Of a stretch of DNA of 44,926 bases, positions 26,795 to 38,989 are shown piece by piece. The DNA is taken from assembly GCA_947598485.1 (NCBI GenBank), contig CANQFJ010000011.1:1-44926 (forward strand), given 5' to 3'. The DNA is from an uncultured Bacilli bacterium (GTDB taxonomy: Bacteria > Bacillota_I > Bacilli_A > RF39 > UBA660). Position 1 is the stretch's first letter, and the number at the start of each line of letters is the position of its first letter. A program made the translations under genes and the position numbers. The notes beneath the pieces are model-generated. The model saw only the letters and a list, made by a program, of their open reading frames with translations. It was not told where the DNA came from and searched no databases.

Positions 26795-26835
26795 TTGACA
26801 GTAAATTTTATTATGTGATAACATTTAAGTATAAT
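26795..26835 (+). promoter_or_regulatory. Promoter region of the secreted-paralogue array
   Basis: Consensus TTGACA (26795-26800) with TAACAT 18 bp downstream (26819-26824), or GATAAC at 16 bp. A perfect TATAAT (26830-26835) is too far from that -35, so it would act only with a different one. The gene 1 SD (GGAGGAG) starts 3 nt later. Confidence 0.5.
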
Positions 26836-26848
26836 AGCGGAGGAGAAA

Positions 26849-27667
26849 ATGGAAAAAAGAAATACTTTATTATTAACAGTAATTGCTATAGCAACATTAC
26901 TAGTAGCAGTAGTGGGTGCTACATTTGCTTATTTTGCGTCAACTATAAATACAAATAATGGTGATGTTAACCTTAATCTTCAAACATCAGATAATAGAGC
27001 AGTATTTACTTCAAGTGCAAGTGGCGGAGTAAATATTACTGTTGACTCTTATATGATGCAACAACATGATGCAGTTGAAGGTGATGATGGAAATGTATCA
27101 AATAATACTGCAATTGCGGGCAATTTAGTTGGAAATGCTAATATAAATGTTACTTTACAAGCTTCAGAACAAGACCATGAAACAACGTGTACATATGACT
27201 TAGTGTTTAAATGGGATGATACTAGTCAAACAAATTTTAAAAATGATAATGGATATAGTGATTTAAATACAAAAAAAGAAGGTGTAGGCACATCCCATAA
27301 ATATTATCCAACGGAATATTATGTCAGAACTGGGTATAAAGACAGCCAAAACAGCGATGGCTTAGAAGGATTTAAAGAATTTACTATTGAGATTAACTCA
27401 ATGACATATACTAACGGGTCGGACGAAGGTGGTACTTCAAACGAAGACTTGGCAGAAGTAAATATTGATGCTATTAAAAAAGTGGAAGATGGCAAAATAA
27501 AATTATTGGAGGGAGAAGAAATAACTAGTACAGCTACCAGCATAGGTGAAGCTCCACATGTTATTTATACTATTGAGTTTCGCTTTTACAACTTAAATAA
27601 AGACCAATCTCACTTGATGGGTAAAAAGTTTGCGGGCACTGTTTCTGTTGAAAATATAATTTGCTAA
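26849..27667 (+). CDS. Array gene 1: secreted camelysin/TasA-type paralogue, C-terminal Cys
   Basis: 272 aa. The N-terminus has the charged start MEKRNTL, a hydrophobic run, then GATFAYFAS, the site seen in camelysin and TasA precursors processed by SipW-type signal peptidases. The mature part (from about residue 30) is beta-rich and acidic. It carries the array motifs YMMQQHDA, TCTYDLVF, YYVRT, FKEFTIE and FRFYNL. It ends in ENIIC, with Cys as the last residue. It has only two cysteines after the signal (the TCTYDL one and the terminal one). First gene of a six-gene operon. The matrix-fibre role is inference from the signal type. Closest relative in the array is gene 6. Confidence 0.85.
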   Translation: MEKRNTLLLTVIAIATLLVAVVGATFAYFASTINTNNGDVNLNLQTSDNRAVFTSSASGGVNITVDSYMMQQHDAVEGDDGNVSNNTAIAGNLVGNANINVTLQASEQDHETTCTYDLVFKWDDTSQTNFKNDNGYSDLNTKKEGVGTSHKYYPTEYYVRTGYKDSQNSDGLEGFKEFTIEINSMTYTNGSDEGGTSNEDLAEVNIDAIKKVEDGKIKLLEGEEITSTATSIGEAPHVIYTIEFRFYNLNKDQSHLMGKKFAGTVSVENIIC

Positions 27668-27693
27668 TTATAACTTAAAGGATAGAATTAATT

Positions 27694-28461
27694 ATGGAAA
27701 AACGTAATACTTTAATACTAACCATAATAGCAATAATTGCTCTTCTTACATCTGTAATTGGAGCAACTTTTGCTTTCTTTATGGCTGAAATTAATACTGC
27801 CAAAGGAAATGTTAATTTAACATTAAATTCTTCAAGTAACAAAGCTGTGTTTACGGCTTCGTCAACTGGAGATGTTAATATAAATGTTGATGCTTATATG
27901 ATGCAAGTTCATGATGCTACTAATGGTGAGATTACATCCAATAATGCTGAGATAGCAAATAATTTGAAATCAAATGCAAGTATAAATGTTAGTTTAACAG
28001 CTTCGGAAGATAATCAAGAAACCAAATGTACTTATGATCTTGTCTTTGTATGGGATAATGAAAGTGCAAATAATTTTACTGAAAAAACTACCGCTGAAGA
28101 AAAAGCAAGCAATGGTAGCAAGTATTATGAAAGTAAGTATTATGTAAGATCAAATAATACAACTGTTGAAGGCTTTAAAGAATTTACTATTGAGATAGAT
28201 GAAACTTCTGGCTTACAAACAGATGAACCTCTTACTTCATCTCAAAGCCTTACAGAGGTAAACATGGATACATTTAATATTGATAGTGATGGGAAAATGA
28301 CTCTGCTTAAAACCCAAGAAATTTCCAGTAGAAGTAGATCTACTAGTACTGTAGCAAATTATAATATTACTTTTAGATTCTATAATTTAAAATCTGATCA
28401 ATCTTCTTTAAAAGGTAAAAAATTTAAAGGTAAGGTAGTAATTGAAAGCGTTATATGTTAA
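27694..28461 (+). CDS. Array gene 2: secreted paralogue, C-terminal Cys
   Basis: 255 aa. The signal segment is diverged from the other copies (ATFAFFMAEINTAKG), but the same motifs follow: YMMQVHDA, KCTYDLVF, KYYVRS, FKEFTIE, FRFYNL, ending in ESVIC. It lies 26 bp after gene 1 with a more distant SD (AAAGGATAG), which may lower its translation. It is one of the two most diverged copies, suggesting an older duplication. No catalytic motif (for example a zinc site of camelysin) is evident. Confidence 0.82.
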   Translation: MEKRNTLILTIIAIIALLTSVIGATFAFFMAEINTAKGNVNLTLNSSSNKAVFTASSTGDVNINVDAYMMQVHDATNGEITSNNAEIANNLKSNASINVSLTASEDNQETKCTYDLVFVWDNESANNFTEKTTAEEKASNGSKYYESKYYVRSNNTTVEGFKEFTIEIDETSGLQTDEPLTSSQSLTEVNMDTFNIDSDGKMTLLKTQEISSRSRSTSTVANYNITFRFYNLKSDQSSLKGKKFKGKVVIESVIC

Positions 28462-28490
28462 AATTATAGACAATAGGGAGGAAAAACAAT

Positions 28491-29267
28491 ATGGGAGATA
28501 GCAAGAAGATGATATTATCGGGCCTTGCCGTTGCAGCTTTATTAATAGCCGTAATGAGTGCATCTTTTGCGTATTTTGCCGCGAACGTTAATATTGATGA
28601 TAAAATTAAATTGAATCTTAATTTGTCAGAGAATAAGGCATCATTTATAGCTACAGCATCTGGAAGTATTGACTTAAAGGTTGAGTCATACATGATGCAA
28701 CAACATGATGCTAGTGAAGATAACACTTCAAACAATACAGAGATTGCAAATAAACTTGTAGCAAATGCCAACATTAATGTTTCATTAACGGCATCTGAAA
28801 CGGGGCATTTGTCTAGTTGTTCATATGATTTAGTATGGGTTTGGGAAAATGATAGTACTAATTTTACTGAAGGAGATGGAAATGGAAATAATCTTTCGAC
28901 TGCTAATGGAAAAGTAAATAGTCAAGAAATATATCCTTCAAAATATTATATTAGAACTGAAAATAATCAAAATTATACAACTGATTTTAAGGAATTTACT
29001 ATTGAAGGCATTCAAACTCATCCGGGCACTGAAGAAAGACCATCAAGTGGATCTCTTTTTGAGGAAAAAAATATTGATCAATTTGAAAAGGTAGAAAATA
29101 GTGATGAAAAATTGTATTTAAAAAAAGGTGAAACAATTTCTACCGAGAATAATACAAGTGTAGATTATGAATTTATCATTAGATTTTACAATTTGCCAAA
29201 TGACCAGTCGAGTTTAATGGGCAAAAACTTTAAAGCTCATGTTGCAGTAGAAAATGTTGTCTGCTAG
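28491..29267 (+). CDS. Array gene 3: most diverged secreted paralogue
   Basis: 258 aa. The start MGDSKKMIL and the signal (SASFAYFAANVNIDDK) differ from the rest, yet the body has YMMQQHDA, SCSYDLVWVW, KYYIRT, FKEFTIE and FYNLPNDQSSLM, and ends ENVVC. Its SD (AGGGAGG) is strong. The distinct N-terminus may mean a different export or assembly role, for example a cap or base subunit in a fibre (speculation). The two-cysteine plan is preserved. Confidence 0.82.
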   Translation: MGDSKKMILSGLAVAALLIAVMSASFAYFAANVNIDDKIKLNLNLSENKASFIATASGSIDLKVESYMMQQHDASEDNTSNNTEIANKLVANANINVSLTASETGHLSSCSYDLVWVWENDSTNFTEGDGNGNNLSTANGKVNSQEIYPSKYYIRTENNQNYTTDFKEFTIEGIQTHPGTEERPSSGSLFEEKNIDQFEKVENSDEKLYLKKGETISTENNTSVDYEFIIRFYNLPNDQSSLMGKNFKAHVAVENVVC

Positions 29268-29287
29268 CAATTAAGGAAGGAATAATA

Positions 29288-30067
29288 ATGGAAAGAAGAA
29301 ATACTTTATTACTAACAGTAATTGCGATTGCAACATTACTAGTAGCGGTAGTCGGTGCTACATTTGCTTATTTTGCATCAACAATTAATACAAACAATGG
29401 TAATGTTAATCTTAATCTTGAAACATCAAAAAATAGAGCTGTATTTACCTCAGCTGCTTCTGGTGGAATAGACATTAAGGTTGAATCATACATGATGCAA
29501 GAGCATGATGCTGTTGAGGGTGATGCTGGGAGCATGTCAGATGACGAATCGATAAATGCCACATTAACTAATAATGCTAATTTAAACGTAACTTTATCAG
29601 CATCAGAAAATAATCATGAAACAACGTGTACATATGATTTAGTATTTAAATGGGATGCTGAAAGCCAAAAAAACTTTGAAAATGAACAAACTAAGGCTGA
29701 ACTTGATGGTCCTGAAGCAAAATACTATAAAAGTAAATATTATGTAAGAACCGATACTAACAATTCTAATGATTTTAAAGAACTTACAATTGAAATTAAT
29801 GTAACTGCCGGTGTTGAGGGCCAAGAAGACGAAAGGCCCGGCGAAAGCGAACTAATAGCAGAGACAAATATTGATACTTTCAGTGTTGATGATTCTGGCA
29901 AAATGACGCTTAAAAGTGATGAAACGATTACTAGTGAGAGCACAACTAATAAATCATATTCTAACTATAACATTATTTTTAGGTTTTATAATTTAAAAAA
30001 TGATCAATCAAATTTGATGAACAAGAAGTTCAAAGGAACTATAAGCGTTGAAAATATTGTTTGTTAA
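29288..30067 (+). CDS. Array gene 4: secreted paralogue, C-terminal Cys
   Basis: 259 aa. The first about 38 residues are nearly identical to genes 1, 5 and 6 (MERRNTLLLTVIAIATLL then GATFAYFASTINTNNG). Body motifs are YMMQEHDA, TCTYDLVF, KYYVRT, FKELTIE and FRFYNL, ending ENIVC. It pairs with gene 5, sharing blocks such as DDSGKMTL and KKSYSNYNIIFRFYNL-like strings. The gap to gene 3 is 20 bp, with SD AAGGAAGG. A recent duplication with gene 5 is likely. Confidence 0.85.
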   Translation: MERRNTLLLTVIAIATLLVAVVGATFAYFASTINTNNGNVNLNLETSKNRAVFTSAASGGIDIKVESYMMQEHDAVEGDAGSMSDDESINATLTNNANLNVTLSASENNHETTCTYDLVFKWDAESQKNFENEQTKAELDGPEAKYYKSKYYVRTDTNNSNDFKELTIEINVTAGVEGQEDERPGESELIAETNIDTFSVDDSGKMTLKSDETITSESTTNKSYSNYNIIFRFYNLKNDQSNLMNKKFKGTISVENIVC

Positions 30068-30087
30068 TGAGAATTAAAAGGTGAATT

Positions 30088-30870
30088 ATGGAAAGAAGAA
30101 ATACTTTATTAATAACAGTAATTGCTATTGCAACATTACTTGTAGCGGTAGTCGGCGCTACTTTTGCTTATTTCGCATCAACAATAAATACGAATAATGG
30201 AAATGTTAATCTTAATCTTGAAACATCAGACAACAAAGCTGTATTTACCTCATCTGCTACCGGTGGCATAGACATTAAGGTTGAGTCATACATGATGCAA
30301 CAACATGATGCTGTTGAGGGTGATGATGAAAATATGTCTAATGATGATGACATAAATGCATTGTTAACTAATAATGCCAATCTAAATGTAACTTTGTTGG
30401 CTTCAGAAGATGACCATGAAACACAATGTACATATGATCTTATATTTAAATGGGATAATGAAAGTGGGAGTAATTTTACTGATGTGGAAACAAAGGAACA
30501 ACCAGAAGGCTCTAGTGAAACAAAATTCTATAAAAGCAAATATTACGTGAGAACTGATACTAGTAATTCCGATGCTTTTAAAGAGCTTACAATTGAAGTT
30601 AATGTAAACGCGGGAGTTGAAGATCAAAAAGAAGAAAGGCCTGACGAAAGCGAATTAATTTCTGAAAGAAATCTAGATACTTTTAACGTTAATGATTCAG
30701 GGAAAATGACGCTTATAAGCGGGGAAACAATTACTAGCGTAAGTAAATCTAAAAAATCATATTCTAACTATAATATTATTTTTAGATTTTATAATTTAAA
30801 AAATGATCAATCAAAACTTATGGATAAGAAGTTTAAGGGAACTATAAGTGTCGATAATATAGTTTGTTAA
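30088..30870 (+). CDS. Array gene 5: secreted paralogue, C-terminal Cys
   Basis: 260 aa and the closest relative of gene 4 in length, signal and body. It has YMMQQHDA, QCTYDLIF, KYYVRT, FKELTIE, NDSGKMTL and FRFYNL, and ends DNIVC. The acidic variable loops (after HDA and before the second half) are where it differs most from gene 4, suggesting diversification of exposed surfaces. The gap to gene 4 is 20 bp. Its 3' end lies 11 bp before gene 6. Confidence 0.85.
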   Translation: MERRNTLLITVIAIATLLVAVVGATFAYFASTINTNNGNVNLNLETSDNKAVFTSSATGGIDIKVESYMMQQHDAVEGDDENMSNDDDINALLTNNANLNVTLLASEDDHETQCTYDLIFKWDNESGSNFTDVETKEQPEGSSETKFYKSKYYVRTDTSNSDAFKELTIEVNVNAGVEDQKEERPDESELISERNLDTFNVNDSGKMTLISGETITSVSKSKKSYSNYNIIFRFYNLKNDQSKLMDKKFKGTISVDNIVC

Positions 30871-30881
30871 GAGGTGGATTT

Positions 30882-31697
30882 ATGGAAAAAAGAAATACTT
30901 TATTACTAACAGTAATTGCTATTGCAACATTACTAGTTGCTGTAGTTGGCGCTACGTTTGCCTATTTTGCATCAACAATTAATACAAATGATGGAAATGT
31001 TAATCTTAATCTTACGGCATCAAACAATAAGGCTGTATTTACATCGAGCTCTACAGGTGGAGTAAATATCAAAGTAGAATCATATATGATGCAGGAGCAT
31101 GATGGCGTTGAGGGTAATGATGGCACTTTGTCTAATAATGCAACAATAAATACAGCTTTAACAAATAGTGCTAATATAAATGTTACTTTACAGGCTTCAG
31201 AATCTGGCCATGAAACTACATGTACTTATGATTTAGTATTTGAATGGAGTAGTACTAGCCAAAGTAATTTCACTGGTGATACTTATAGTGGTCTAGAATC
31301 AAAACAAAATGGCGTAGGAATATCAAATACGTATTACCCTACTAAATATTATGTTAGAACAGGCTATAAAAATAGTGAAAGTGAAAATGAAGGCGAAGAG
31401 GGATTTAAAGAATTCACTATCGAAGTAAGCTCTATGACATATACGGGATCTAACGATGATAGAGGTTCATCAGGTCAATCCTTAAATGAAATAAATATTG
31501 ATGAAATTAAACCGGAAAACGGGAAATTAATTTTACTAAAAAATGAAGAAATAACTAGTACAAGTAATAATTCGAGTGATTTGCCACGAATTGAATATCA
31601 AATTGATTTTAGATTTTATAATTTGAAGAAAGATCAATCCCATTTGATGGGTAAAACATTCGCGGGTACCGTTTCTGTTAAAAATGTAATTTGTTAG
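30882..31697 (+). CDS. Array gene 6: secreted paralogue, C-terminal Cys
   Basis: 271 aa from the ATG at 30882. A longer frame from a TTG at 30864 overlaps gene 5 and is made of the SD region (GAGGTGG), so it is rejected. Motifs are YMMQEHDG, TCTYDLVF, KYYVRTGYKNS, FKEFTIE and FRFYNLKKDQSHLMG, ending KNVIC. It is most like gene 1 (both have a GVG-containing insert before the KYYVRT-like block), so the first and last genes are sisters. It is followed by the operon terminator. Confidence 0.85.
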   Translation: MEKRNTLLLTVIAIATLLVAVVGATFAYFASTINTNDGNVNLNLTASNNKAVFTSSSTGGVNIKVESYMMQEHDGVEGNDGTLSNNATINTALTNSANINVTLQASESGHETTCTYDLVFEWSSTSQSNFTGDTYSGLESKQNGVGISNTYYPTKYYVRTGYKNSESENEGEEGFKEFTIEVSSMTYTGSNDDRGSSGQSLNEINIDEIKPENGKLILLKNEEITSTSNNSSDLPRIEYQIDFRFYNLKKDQSHLMGKTFAGTVSVKNVIC

Positions 31698-31758: not shown

Positions 31759-31790
31759 TAAAAAACCTTTAGATTTTAACTAAAGGCTTT
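31759..31790 (-). terminator. Terminator of the repeat-protein operon
   Basis: On the minus strand CCTTTAG/CTAAAGG (31780-31786 with 31766-31772) is followed by a T-run (complement of the As at 31760-31765). Confidence 0.75.
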
Positions 31791-31801
31791 TAGTTTATAT
31801 A

Positions 31802-33877
31802 TTATTTCCAAATGCTAGGTTCTTTTGATTCTTCTTTTTTAACACATACTTGATGATATTTACCTCTACCAGTTCTTTGGTAACCAGGTATATAAGTTTG
31901 TGAGCTAAATATGTAATCGACATCAGTCCATGTAGGGTTGACAGTTGATACTGATGTACTATGACACATGTTATCTCCTCCTAATACATATCCGTCTTCA
32001 CAAGAATTGTATTGGAATTCTGAATCTTTCTTAATGTAACATAATGTGCCTTTTAATTCAGCGGCTGCATTTTCACAATAATATTCATCATCAGATTGAA
32101 CGTATTTATAACATGTCATTGTTGAGCCACTTCCTGAAGAAGTATAATCTGAAGGACATTTATAGTATACATAACCACCTGTGTATTTAGCGTCTTTATA
32201 AGTCTTACAATTAGTACCATTATCACTATAACCACTTGGGCAACTCTTAATTTCTTTTGTTGTACCATTAGTTTTTATATAACATGTTGAACCACTATCA
32301 GTGTATCCAGAAGGACAAGTTCCATTTGTAGTTCTTGTTAATTTATTAGTATAAGTATAGCAATAGTCACCAATTGGTGTGTAACCTGCAGAACATGTTG
32401 TTTTAGTTGTCGTTGTTACCTTTTGTCTTATATAACAATTAGTACCATTATCAGTATATCCGTCAGGACATTTCTTGGTAGTTGTTACATTACCAGGTGA
32501 TTCTACTAAACATTTATCTCCTGATAACTTACCTTGAGAACATGTATAGTATGAAGTTCTTCTATAAATTGAATAAGTATAAACTTTAGAACCAAATACA
32601 GATCCTTCACCAACTTTTACTTTCTTTTCAAGTTCATGAACATATTCTGTTTCTGGTTTACTAGTTTGATAAGTTTTAACTGGGTTACCCCATGGAGTAT
32701 AAGTTTTAACAGCACTTACAGTTTTAATACACTTGTCACCTGAAGGTTGAGTACCTGATGGGCAAGTAACTTTAGTACTAACTATCTTATCAGCATATTT
32801 ATAGCAGTAGTCACCATTTTGAGTATATCCATTTGGACAAGGTTCAGTAACAGTGGTTTTAGTTCCAGGAACTTTTTTATAACAATTAGTTCCGTTATCA
32901 GTATATCCGTCAGGGCAATATGATTCAGTCGTACCGCCAACTCTATCAGCATACTTGTAGCAGTAGAATCCTACAGGATTGTATCCACTTGGACATTCAA
33001 TAACATAAGTAACCACTTTATCTTTATAAAGTACACATTTATCACCAACCAAAGTACCTTCGGTACAGTAATAATGTCCATCAGTTACATCACGAATTGG
33101 GTCAGTATAAACTTTATAAGGTTCTCCCTTATTAACTTTGGCATTTTCAACGACTGTAGTAGGGTCAGAGTAGTGTGGAGTAGGAGCTACAGAATTTGTA
33201 GATTCCATAACACAGACAGAACCACTTATATTATATCCGTTAGGACAGTTTACAGATCTTTTAACAAATTCATATTCATAACTTACTGTACAAGTTGTAG
33301 GTATTTCTTCGACTGTACAGTTAAAGTCTTTACAATAAACAGTACTATCACCATTTCCATTTGTAGTATTACTTGAGTTATTGGAAGATGGATTCTTTTC
33401 AACGTCTAAATCTACTTTGTCATCAGTTTCATCAACGATAGTGTTACCATCTTTGTCAGTAACTGTTGTTGATGACTTAATTTTTTCAATAGTACTATCA
33501 GATTTATCAGCACAAACTAAGTTAGATTTAACTCGATATTCATCGTTACTTGTTTTAGTTATTGATACATAACTTTCTTCAATATCACATGTTTCATTGC
33601 CATATTTTAATTCTTCAATAGCACCCATATCAATTAGTTCACTTAAACTAGTTTGAAGTGTGCCACCAACTTCATCAGGAAGTTGACCTGCGAAGAATTG
33701 TTTGGCAGTTTGATGTAATAAATCTAGATTATCCGCAAATTGTTGATCATTATTTACTGTTTTGTTACTATTTGTTTTATTAACAAGGAAAACTATTAAA
33801 AAGATAATAATTAAGACAGCAATTACACCAACGAGAATGTTAATTACACGGGAATTTTTATTACTTTTATTATACAT
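31802..33877 (-). CDS. Membrane-anchored surface protein with about 14 Cys-rich CPxGY repeats
   Basis: 691 aa. A short cytoplasmic start, one membrane anchor (about residues 11-33), then a pilin-like segment (AKQFFAGQLPDEVGGTLQTS through LVCAD, residues about 55-120). A Ser/Asn/Thr linker follows. The rest is an array of about 14 units of the form C-P-x-G-Y-x4-G-x2-C-Y, such as CPDGYTDNGTNCY, spaced about 20-45 residues. The paired cysteines of each unit suggest disulfide-tied small loops, as in EGF-like surface repeats. Function is unknown, with adhesion plausible. A TTG at 33883 lies too near the SD (AAAGGAGG), so the ATG at 33877 is used. It is the second gene of a two-gene operon. Confidence 0.82.
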   Translation of the reverse strand: MYNKSNKNSRVINILVGVIAVLIIIFLIVFLVNKTNSNKTVNNDQQFADNLDLLHQTAKQFFAGQLPDEVGGTLQTSLSELIDMGAIEELKYGNETCDIEESYVSITKTSNDEYRVKSNLVCADKSDSTIEKIKSSTTVTDKDGNTIVDETDDKVDLDVEKNPSSNNSSNTTNGNGDSTVYCKDFNCTVEEIPTTCTVSYEYEFVKRSVNCPNGYNISGSVCVMESTNSVAPTPHYSDPTTVVENAKVNKGEPYKVYTDPIRDVTDGHYYCTEGTLVGDKCVLYKDKVVTYVIECPSGYNPVGFYCYKYADRVGGTTESYCPDGYTDNGTNCYKKVPGTKTTVTEPCPNGYTQNGDYCYKYADKIVSTKVTCPSGTQPSGDKCIKTVSAVKTYTPWGNPVKTYQTSKPETEYVHELEKKVKVGEGSVFGSKVYTYSIYRRTSYYTCSQGKLSGDKCLVESPGNVTTTKKCPDGYTDNGTNCYIRQKVTTTTKTTCSAGYTPIGDYCYTYTNKLTRTTNGTCPSGYTDSGSTCYIKTNGTTKEIKSCPSGYSDNGTNCKTYKDAKYTGGYVYYKCPSDYTSSGSGSTMTCYKYVQSDDEYYCENAAAELKGTLCYIKKDSEFQYNSCEDGYVLGGDNMCHSTSVSTVNPTWTDVDYIFSSQTYIPGYQRTGRGKYHQVCVKKEESKEPSIWK

Positions 33878-33898
33878 TTCCAAAACCTCCTTTTATTT

Positions 33899-35719
33899 TT
33901 ATCTTGATTGATTATGATAGCATGTTATGTTTTCATCAATTACAAATGAATATATGGCATTTTTTTCATTACCGATGTATGTACCACCTTTAGCATCAAT
34001 ATACATAAAGGCTGCAAGTTCTTCAACACATAGGGCACCATGAGTACCATCAATTCTTGGTCCAGTACCATAGATAGGTCCTAAGTTCTTACCAGATGTA
34101 AGTTCAAGTACTCTATCTTGGTTAGCAGTATACATACCTGCAATAACATAGTGAGTAGAACCAGGGCTGTTAGGACATACAGAGAAGTTAACTGCTTCAC
34201 GACATACTAGTTCATTCATAACTTTAGCATATAAGAATGCTTTTTCTTCATCTTTTTGATAAATACCATTTAAGCAAAGTTCTGCAACGCGATAAATATC
34301 ATAACCAGTTTCAGTCTTAGCAGAAGAGAAGTCATCTACAGATAAAGCATTGTCTGTTGATGTCATAATAATATCTATCATATCTTGATCAGTTAAATTA
34401 ATATCATCTTCTGGAGCTCTTTGAACTAAGGCATCAACGCCAATAACAGGAGCAAGTTCACCAATATGATATGTTGATGCACAAACTTCATCACGATCAG
34501 TAAACCAACCTTTTTCGCCATCATTTAATTTATCAAAGTTAGCAAGTCTTAAAGCATACATAATATCATCAATTGAAATGCTTAAATCTTCTGGTAATTT
34601 AGTTTGAATACTAATAGCAAAATTGTATAAATCACTATAATTATTAATATCAATATTTTGGGCAATTAGCTTTTCTTCTTCAATATCTTCTATATGACTT
34701 GGCTCTGATGGAGTAGGCTCAGGTTTATTTGCTTCCTTCTTGCCTGCATGAGTTATTAAATAGGCAATAAGTAAAGCTAATCCGGCAGCTCCTAAACCAA
34801 CACCAACATATGATAATATTTTACCAAGTAAGCTTTTGCTAGATTTTCTAGTTGGCTCTGGTACTTCACTTTCAGGAACAACACGTGTAACACGATGTGT
34901 AGTGCCTAAGTTAAGACTTTCTTTGATATCCGAAATGTCTTGTACTATTTGTGTATATTTTATTTGATAGTCTCTAAATGATTTATCTTTATCAGGTTTA
35001 TCTTGAATAGCCATGTAGTCAACACTAGAATCTGTCATAACTTGTTTAAGATATTTTTTATCTTTTTTTCTTAGTGTGATATCTTCATTCTCTAGTAAAG
35101 ACTTAGCTTCTTTATTACAATTAAATATTAATGTTACAATATCTACTTTGCTAGGTACAGCAGTACCAAGTATTCCTTTAATACTGTAATCAATACTTGT
35201 ATATTTGTTATTTAATTCATCAAGTTGTTCATCACTTAAGCCAGAAAGAACTGCGCTAATATCCTTATCAATATCAGCGTTAGCAGAATTTATAATGCCT
35301 TTAACGGTATCATTTAAATCATCTTTAGCATTTAATGACTTAATTTCATCTTGGCAAAGTACGATAAGTGATAAAACATCCTTAGCCTTATCATTAATAG
35401 TTGTAAGCCCATTAATTACTGCAACTTTAGCTTCAAGTGTATCTGCAGATTTAATAGCATCAAAGGGAAGCGTAGAAGCAGGTGCTTTAGACCAACTATT
35501 TATTAATTCCTCTATGCCTTCATATCTTTGTTGGTACTCATCAAAGTTATCAGTATCAGGTTTATTATTAACCTCTTTAATGTCTTTTGCTACTTGTGCT
35601 CCAATCTTACGTAAATTTTCGATAGTAATTTTGCTTTCATCAAATGAATTATTTTTTAAGTAACCTTGAATTATAGCATCACACCTAAATAGTAATGCTA
35701 GTATCTCCATTTTTCTCAT
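33899..35719 (-). CDS. Unknown membrane protein with three cytoplasmic helical repeats
   Basis: 606 aa, not recognised. The N-terminal half holds three diverged repeats (about residues 4-70, 113-178 and 192-260). Each opens with a hydrophobic heptad ending in Cys (ILALLFRC, VLSLIVLC, IVTLIFNC) and closes with a Tyr-containing helix (YQQRYEGIEELI, LNNKYTSIDYSI, YQIKYTQIVQDI). One membrane helix at about 301-324 is followed by a Pro/Glu linker and an extracellular domain of about 265 residues with four or five Cys (including CASTYHIGELAPVIG and GALCVEELAAF). A TTG at 35725 is discounted, and the ATG at 35719 has SD AGGAGGG. It is co-transcribed with the CPxGY-repeat protein 21 bp downstream. 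Confidence 0.78.
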   Translation of the reverse strand: MRKMEILALLFRCDAIIQGYLKNNSFDESKITIENLRKIGAQVAKDIKEVNNKPDTDNFDEYQQRYEGIEELINSWSKAPASTLPFDAIKSADTLEAKVAVINGLTTINDKAKDVLSLIVLCQDEIKSLNAKDDLNDTVKGIINSANADIDKDISAVLSGLSDEQLDELNNKYTSIDYSIKGILGTAVPSKVDIVTLIFNCNKEAKSLLENEDITLRKKDKKYLKQVMTDSSVDYMAIQDKPDKDKSFRDYQIKYTQIVQDISDIKESLNLGTTHRVTRVVPESEVPEPTRKSSKSLLGKILSYVGVGLGAAGLALLIAYLITHAGKKEANKPEPTPSEPSHIEDIEEEKLIAQNIDINNYSDLYNFAISIQTKLPEDLSISIDDIMYALRLANFDKLNDGEKGWFTDRDEVCASTYHIGELAPVIGVDALVQRAPEDDINLTDQDMIDIIMTSTDNALSVDDFSSAKTETGYDIYRVAELCLNGIYQKDEEKAFLYAKVMNELVCREAVNFSVCPNSPGSTHYVIAGMYTANQDRVLELTSGKNLGPIYGTGPRIDGTHGALCVEELAAFMYIDAKGGTYIGNEKNAIYSFVIDENITCYHNQSR

Positions 35720-35752
35720 AATCAAAACCCTCCTTTTTGATTTATGGCGCCT

Positions 35753-38030: not shown

Positions 38031-38122
38031 AAAATACTAAAATAAAAAAGGAAATTGCACCTTTATCGGGTATATATAAATATAAAGGGATAAATATATT
38101 CCTGGTAGAGGAGGTTATGGTT

Positions 38123-38989
38123 ATGGATAACCAAAATAAGATGTATATAATAAATAAAATATTTAATAACGAGACGATTAGGACGATTTGGGATAAGGAA
38201 GAGGAAAAATATTTTATTAGTGTAGTTGATGTTGTAGGCGTTATAACGGAAAGCAAAGATAAAAGAAAGTATTGGAATAAGCTTAAAGAAAGGCTTAAAC
38301 ATGAAGGCAATCAGTCGGTGACAAATTGTCACCAACCGAAACTTAAAGCTTCTGATGGTAAATATTATAAAACAGATGTTGTAGATATTGAAGGGATGTT
38401 TAGAATCATTGAATCAATTCCCAGTAAGAATGCTGAGCCAATAAAGAGGTGGCTTGCTAAACTAGGAAGCGAAAGAATCGATGAAGTATTTGATCCTTCC
38501 ATAGCAGTCCAAAGATCTATAGAATTGTATAGGGCTAAGGGTTATGATGAAAAATGGATTGCCCAAAGAATTCAAAATGTTCAAAGTCGTAAAAGTCTTA
38601 CTGACATATGGAAAGAAAATGGAGTCCATGAAGGTAAAGAATTTGCTATACTAACTAACGAAATATACAAAACTTGGTCAGGAATGACTGCAAGTGAGTA
38701 TAAAGAATACAAAGGACTTAAAAAGGAGTCCTTAAGAGATAACATGGATAATATAGAAATATCTTTAACAGATATAAGTGAGGAGGTAACAAAAAGATTA
38801 GCAGGAAAAGCAAAACCTCAGGGGTTAAATGAAAACCTTAAGGTTGCTAGGCTTGGTGGTAATGTTGCCAAAAATACTAGAAACGAAATAGAAAATTTAC
38901 TAGGGGAATCTATTGTTACTAAAGAAAATCGATTAAATTATAAATATATTAATGAAAAGGATAAGATAGAGTTAAAAAAGGAGGATTAA
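38123..38989 (+). CDS. Bro-N domain antirepressor-like protein
   Basis: About 288 aa. The Bro-N domain (residues about 10-120) starts with FNNETIRTIWDKEEEKYFIS, followed by VVDVVGVITESKDKRKYWNKL and VTNCHQPKLKASDGKYYKTD. The C-terminal half has RIDEVFDPSIAVQRSIELYR, GVHEGKEFAILTNEIYKTWSGM and GLKKESLRDNM. These blocks are typical of the chromosomal 'phage antirepressor/BRO' proteins of gut Firmicutes and Bacteroidetes. It is probably DNA-binding. No other phage gene is near. The ATG at 38117 is only 2 nt from the SD GAGGAGG, so the ATG at 38123 is preferred. Codons for VTNCH form a perfect palindrome (38316-38332). Confidence 0.85.
   Translation: MDNQNKMYIINKIFNNETIRTIWDKEEEKYFISVVDVVGVITESKDKRKYWNKLKERLKHEGNQSVTNCHQPKLKASDGKYYKTDVVDIEGMFRIIESIPSKNAEPIKRWLAKLGSERIDEVFDPSIAVQRSIELYRAKGYDEKWIAQRIQNVQSRKSLTDIWKENGVHEGKEFAILTNEIYKTWSGMTASEYKEYKGLKKESLRDNMDNIEISLTDISEEVTKRLAGKAKPQGLNENLKVARLGGNVAKNTRNEIENLLGESIVTKENRLNYKYINEKDKIELKKED

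Follow-up and report, generated by a model that had tools for sequence, protein, structure and literature searches.

A tandem array of six SipW-type exported, TasA-like proteins with paired cysteines in an uncultured Bacilli bacterium

TasA-type fibers are so far known from a few cultured Bacillota and archaea. TasA polymerizes through an N-terminal donor strand, where residues F29, I32, and F39 make hydrophobic contacts with the next subunits (PMC9674648). In TapA, C92 and C188 are bonded within one molecule, and constructs carrying an odd number of cysteines dimerize (PMC10151520). Polymers of BsaA, a biofilm matrix protein of Clostridium perfringens whose export depends on SipW, withstand reducing SDS-PAGE (PMC7395162). 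We analyzed a stretch of 44,926 nucleotides, called the window here, that makes up one contig (CANQFJ010000011.1, our C11) of an uncultured member of the Bacilli (GTDB lineage RF39; UBA660) with a genome of 1.26 Mb in 38 contigs that is 97% complete. The nearest named relatives are metagenome-assembled genomes with the isolate names Lapin-004 and Lapin-022, which we read as pointing to the rabbit gut. We found no literature that joins RF39 with SipW.

The window encodes six tandem proteins that are like TasA and CalY (camelysin, PF12389) in having a SipW-type signal end and a mature part predicted to be a beta-sandwich. As in TasA there is a candidate for a flexible N-terminal strand, with F29 and I/V33 of the array precursors corresponding to F29 and I32 of TasA. 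Unlike TasA and CalY, the array proteins have a conserved cysteine pair on strands D and I, occur in six tandem copies with no adjacent sipW, and in our profile comparison showed similarity to these proteins over the signal peptide only. They are like BsaA in their apparent SipW-dependent export, but they have no match to the BsaA model (TIGR04090) and no disulfide role has been reported for BsaA. TapA is similar in that an intramolecular disulfide, predicted in our proteins, closes a folded domain near the C-terminal end. However, TapA has a V-set Ig fold to which flexible tails are added, and it is one accessory protein rather than a repeated subunit. We place the array as a variant among the TasA-like matrix proteins that are exported by SipW and do not assign it strictly to TasA/camelysin.

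Organization of the array

The earlier note on this DNA, made from the letters alone, described a tandem array of six secreted paralogs, and all six open reading frames were found on the + strand between 26849 and 31697. They are co-directional, encode proteins of 255–272 aa, and are separated by gaps of 11–29 bp. The features are as follows.

26795..26824, + strand: promoter-like TTGACA-18-TAACAT preceding the array, with TG before the -10 (consensus scan, 10/12)
Directly before 26849, + strand: Shine-Dalgarno-like GGAGG of paralog 1
26849..27667, + strand: paralog 1, 272 aa, signal end ATFA/YFA (slash, predicted cleavage); cysteine codons 27188-27190 (C114, strand D) and 27662-27664 (C272, end of strand I)
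27694..28461, + strand: paralog 2, 255 aa; cysteine codons 28027-28029 and 28456-28458
28491..29267, + strand: paralog 3, 258 aa; cysteine codons 28818-28820 and 29262-29264
29288..30067, + strand: paralog 4, 259 aa; cysteine codons 29627-29629 and 30062-30064
30088..30870, + strand: paralog 5, 260 aa; cysteine codons 30427-30429 and 30865-30867
30882..31697, + strand: paralog 6, 271 aa; cysteine codons 31221-31223 and 31692-31694
31766..31786, + strand: terminator-like hairpin after paralog 6 (consensus match)

For paralog 6, the ATG at 30882 appears to be a better start than the TTG at 30864 because an RBS-like GAGGTGG lies upstream of it and the N-terminus is then in line with those of the other paralogs. 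The promoter-like site on the 5' side and the single terminator-like hairpin on the 3' side, both of which are consensus matches only, are consistent with the six genes forming one operon. Codons 1–30 of genes 1, 4, 5, and 6, which encode the signal peptides, have a third-position likeness of 0.73–0.83 compared with 0.50–0.66 in the remainder, and these 5' ends suggest gene conversion or recent exchange.

In an alignment of 278 columns, paralogs 2–6 are 45–69% identical to paralog 1, and the loops between the conserved strands vary strongly across the six. Paralog 3 is the most divergent and has the signal ASFAYF. The body motifs that the earlier note listed as common to all six are present across the array with small departures, CSYDL and IRFYNL in gene 3 and YMMQEHDG in gene 6, and the C-terminal ends read ENIIC, ESVIC, ENVVC, ENIVC, DNIVC, and KNVIC. 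The claim that each mature protein has one internal and one terminal cysteine is true of all six. There are exactly two per protein, one in C[TS]YDL and the other as the final residue.

Export and relation to known families

All six proteins carry the camelysin/TasA-type signal end reported for them, in the form ATFAYF, ATFAFF, or ASFAYF. Four of the six match the SipW signal model (TIGR04088), all below its 19-bit cut-off, with a best score of 10.8 bits. There is no sipW beside the array. A search elsewhere in the genome, as proposed in that note, found two SipW-type signal peptidases on contigs C18 and C1. Both are over the cut-off of TIGR02228 and match the NF046067 SipW model with E values of 3e-24 and 1e-16, although these matches fall short of that model's own equivalog cut-off. 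The serine in SGSM or GTSM and the histidine in TVTHR[VI] are at the expected places (SGSM...THRV and GTSM...THRI). Directly upstream of the SipW-type peptidase on contig C18 is a gene for a 691-aa protein (L148, 6313-8388, + strand) in which DxDGDGxxD-like and CxxxC repeats are numerous, and its C-terminal stretch resembles the last strand of the array proteins.

Direct membership of the array proteins in PF12389 (Peptidase_M73) was rejected, with no match in the six at E≤10 and none in the genome at E≤0.001. For the array proteins, no model in Pfam or NCBIfam scored over its cut-off. Among 22 diverse members of the wider family, 5 weakly matched PF12389 (best E 2.8e-4), 5 weakly matched the SipW signal model, and 2 weakly matched BsaA TIGR04090 (best E 4.5e-4). 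When our family profile (A3) was compared by hhalign with PF12389-positive proteins and their neighbors, only 34 signal-peptide columns were aligned; the template profile was thin, with 5 rows. Profiles A2 and A3 were also run against the sequences in the Protein Data Bank and gave nothing at E≤10.

The genome also encodes three exported or membrane-anchored CxxC proteins with a thioredoxin fold:

L056 1342-1878, L057 842-1732, and L058 1303-1995: thioredoxin-fold proteins with the motifs CDVC, CPFC, and CPWC

Two of the three have weak matches to PedC/BrcD, and we regard all three as candidates for disulfide machinery. Because such proteins are encoded, disulfide formation is chemically plausible. 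No match to VKOR, DsbB, or Thioredoxin_4/DsbA was found in the genome. Four sortase-family matches are present. The six array proteins all end in [IV][IV]C and have no LPXTG-type sorting signal with a hydrophobic tail, so their assembly by sortase is unlikely.

Probable cysteine pairing and the predicted fold

We counted the cysteines in the mature parts of proteins shorter than 350 aa with this signal type from related genomes of the same GTDB family. The first 51 proteins had 0, 2, 4, or 8 cysteines and none had an odd number. The count was repeated on 79 new proteins, from 40 further regions and from loci matched in family-wide and class-wide profile searches, and again no protein had an odd number (0/79). 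Combined, the number is even in 130/130, of which 76 contain cysteine. In the control, the other open reading frames of the same loci, 83 had an even number above zero and 96 an odd number; this control set is mechanical and includes reading frames that are not genes.

The cysteine of strand D and the cysteine at the end occur together in 47 of the 130 proteins, are both absent in 83, and are never found alone. This co-occurrence does not represent 130 independent cases because the proteins are related. On the tree the D/I pair is gained or lost about three times in all, too few events for a tree-based independent-pairs test to reach significance, so that the Fisher value for the co-occurrence table is not independent evidence. 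The even-number rule, which holds over many arrangements, appears to be the stronger point. The 29 cysteine-bearing proteins that do not have the D-strand cysteine show 19 other spacings, all even-numbered and many with cysteines 9–20 residues apart, and two close relatives have exactly one additional close pair each. In 21 of the 47 proteins the chain stops at the end cysteine itself, whereas 1–24 residues trail it in the other 26. In paralogs on contigs C7 and C4 an extra domain follows the end cysteine and on contig C10 it is followed by the residues TEN; all of these keep the partner cysteine in CTYDI or CKYNL. The earlier note had named absence of the terminal cysteine from orthologs as counting against its proposal. 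This did not occur, and the residue is kept in 8/8 close relatives.

AlphaFold2 models were made with 14 sequences for paralog 1 (mean pLDDT 69, pTM 0.69) and for one relative from locus L023 (mean pLDDT 66, pTM 0.68). These moderate-confidence models both have eight main strands in identical order. For paralog 1, the internal cysteine (C87 of the mature protein, C114 of the precursor) is placed early in the third strand (85–95) and the end cysteine (C245 mature, C272 precursor) right after the eighth strand (233–244); the layout is the same in the relative. In a jelly roll the two sheets are BIDG and CHEF, and strands D and I are antiparallel neighbors. If the proteins are jelly rolls, the start of D would be beside the end of I, and both cysteines would therefore be side by side in one molecule. 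Mature residues 1–24 are predicted as coil, mostly at low confidence. Within this segment position 2 is invariantly F and position 6 is I or V in the array proteins and close relatives.

In the fold search that the earlier note had proposed, the TasA fiber 8aur_A was the top VIA-align match for both paralog 1 (Z 5.7, rmsd 3.8, 142 aligned) and the L023 relative (Z 6.3, rmsd 3.9, 142 aligned), but these Z values are below 8, the level for trusting one match, and other sandwiches were within 1 Z. The monomeric adhesin domains of SdrD, ClfB, and PsrP ranked within 1–2 Z of TasA, and the 50 best matches of Foldseek alone included no TasA chain and were generic sandwiches.

Our best reading is that the array encodes TasA-like matrix or pilus subunits that are specific to this lineage and have expanded in tandem. 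A SipW-type signal peptidase would cleave after ATFA. This would free the N-terminal segment, Y-F-x-x-x-[IV]..., which would be flexible and, by analogy with TasA, could enter the next subunit as a donor strand, and such insertion would build a matrix or a pilus-like fiber on the cell surface. The cysteine at the start of strand D and the cysteine at the end of strand I would be joined by a single disulfide within the molecule, which would staple the C-terminal strand to the sheet and thereby stabilize the fold outside of the cell. The pair would then not be a link between subunits. We consider it very likely that the internal and end cysteines form such a staple. The joint reading, in which exported TasA-like beta-sandwich subunits with a D–I staple assemble by donor strands into a matrix or pilus fiber, is probable with appreciable room for doubt.

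The earlier note proposed that the end cysteine, together with the internal one, forms inter-chain disulfides that cross-link the subunits into a fiber, matrix, or surface layer. Two invariant cysteines per mature protein, with one at the extreme C-terminus, favor this idea, and an ordered D-to-I bond between neighboring subunits would also fit both the even numbers and the co-occurrence of the pair. However, the even-number rule covers many arrangements, including close local pairs, the paralogs on contigs C7 and C4 carry domains beyond the end cysteine, and the models predict adjacency within one molecule. In addition, the characterized TasA-like proteins polymerize without disulfides. The even-number and co-occurrence tests led us to reject cross-linking by the end cysteine as the main reading, and we regard it as quite unlikely. 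What stands of that proposal is a secreted family for which a TasA-like fiber or matrix role is plausible; disulfide linkage between subunits is not supported. A lone C-terminal cysteine can serve as a modification site in other systems. Here the terminal cysteine might be a site of modification or anchoring, or the cysteines might be ligands for a metal or cofactor. This is highly improbable given that the end cysteine is not terminal in 26 of the 47 relatives, that the even-number rule holds at unrelated positions, and that no further conserved cysteine or histidine ligand cluster accompanies the pair among the invariant columns of the close-relative alignment.

The remaining alternative accepts the staple and differs on assembly. 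The proteins could be secreted or displayed on the surface without polymerizing, as a diversified group of adhesins or variable surface antigens that tandem duplication has enlarged. The strongly variable loops between conserved strands, the fold matches to SdrD, ClfB, and PsrP, and a copy number of 1, 3, or 6 at one syntenic place are all in keeping with this. By contrast, SipW-type signals mark the fiber-forming TasA, CalY, and BsaA proteins in characterized bacteria, and the flexible N-terminal segment with its invariant F and I/V is like the TasA donor strand. We find non-polymerizing adhesins or antigens possible but rather doubtful.

Distribution, copy number, and implications

More family members are encoded on other contigs of the same genome:

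Contig C20: three family members in tandem
Contig C7: a 614-aa fusion
Contig C10: a 201-aa protein
Contig C4: a 367-aa fusion
Contig C19: cysteine-richer relatives

The array is at a deoD-linked syntenic site that has one copy in a genome of the same genus (G152, locus L128), three copies in L023, and six here. From these copy numbers the array of six is a tandem expansion. A second locus type with two or three copies (L024 and L025) has ftsZ and spoIIGA-, sigE-, and sigG-like genes close by, upstream of its own array. These are sporulation sigma factors in small-genome gut Bacilli. Cassettes of the C20 type are also found in congeners, where they encode two to five small subunits, and genome G254 adds a 600-aa protein. 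The family profile was run across genomes as had been proposed. Profile A3 matched 178 of 386 sampled genomes of the same GTDB family. It also matched 26 of 296 genomes sampled across the class, and all 26 belong to this family.

Some of the larger proteins join a TasA-like N-terminal domain to a C-terminal domain (L019 5346-7190, L022 4864-5967, and L109 847-2649, all on the - strand). In two of these the C-terminal domain ends with a [RY]PVFYLNxD-type motif. We regard these fusion proteins as candidate tip adhesins.

Several neighbors of the array in the window were also noted. On the - strand, 31802-33883 encodes a protein of 693 aa that has a membrane anchor at its N-terminus, 34 cysteines in CPxGYxxxGxxCY-type repeats, and no Pfam match over the cut-off. 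A 737-aa relative is at the same place and in the same orientation in L023, and no relative is beside the single-copy gene in L128. The next gene (33899-35725, - strand) encodes a 608-aa protein that has an internal transmembrane-like segment and no family match over the cut-off; its synteny with the cysteine-rich protein is kept in L023. Shortly after ruvB, a phage-type gene at 38117-38986 on the + strand encodes a BRO-N domain protein (PF02498, E 1e-7).

From the strict even-cysteine rule follows a simple prediction about surface-protein chemistry that can be tested, and the rule raises the question of the oxidase in a genome with no recognizable VKOR, DsbB, or DsbA-type matches. A further idea, which we offer tentatively and with a modest chance of being correct, is that small-genome gut Bacilli have a surface organelle system derived from a TasA-like, SipW-exported domain. 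It would consist of several cassettes of stapled subunits per genome, with fusions of ~370–1000 aa as tip or adhesin subunits, and would form a heteropolymeric pilus by donor-strand assembly, with neither usher nor sortase. If this is true, the TasA-like domain has been turned into a lineage-specific surface organelle in these bacteria. A TasA-like family that has no curated model is widespread and multiplied in one uncultured family of gut Bacilli and, given its spread in close to half of the sampled genomes of that family, a major surface structure may have gone unnamed.
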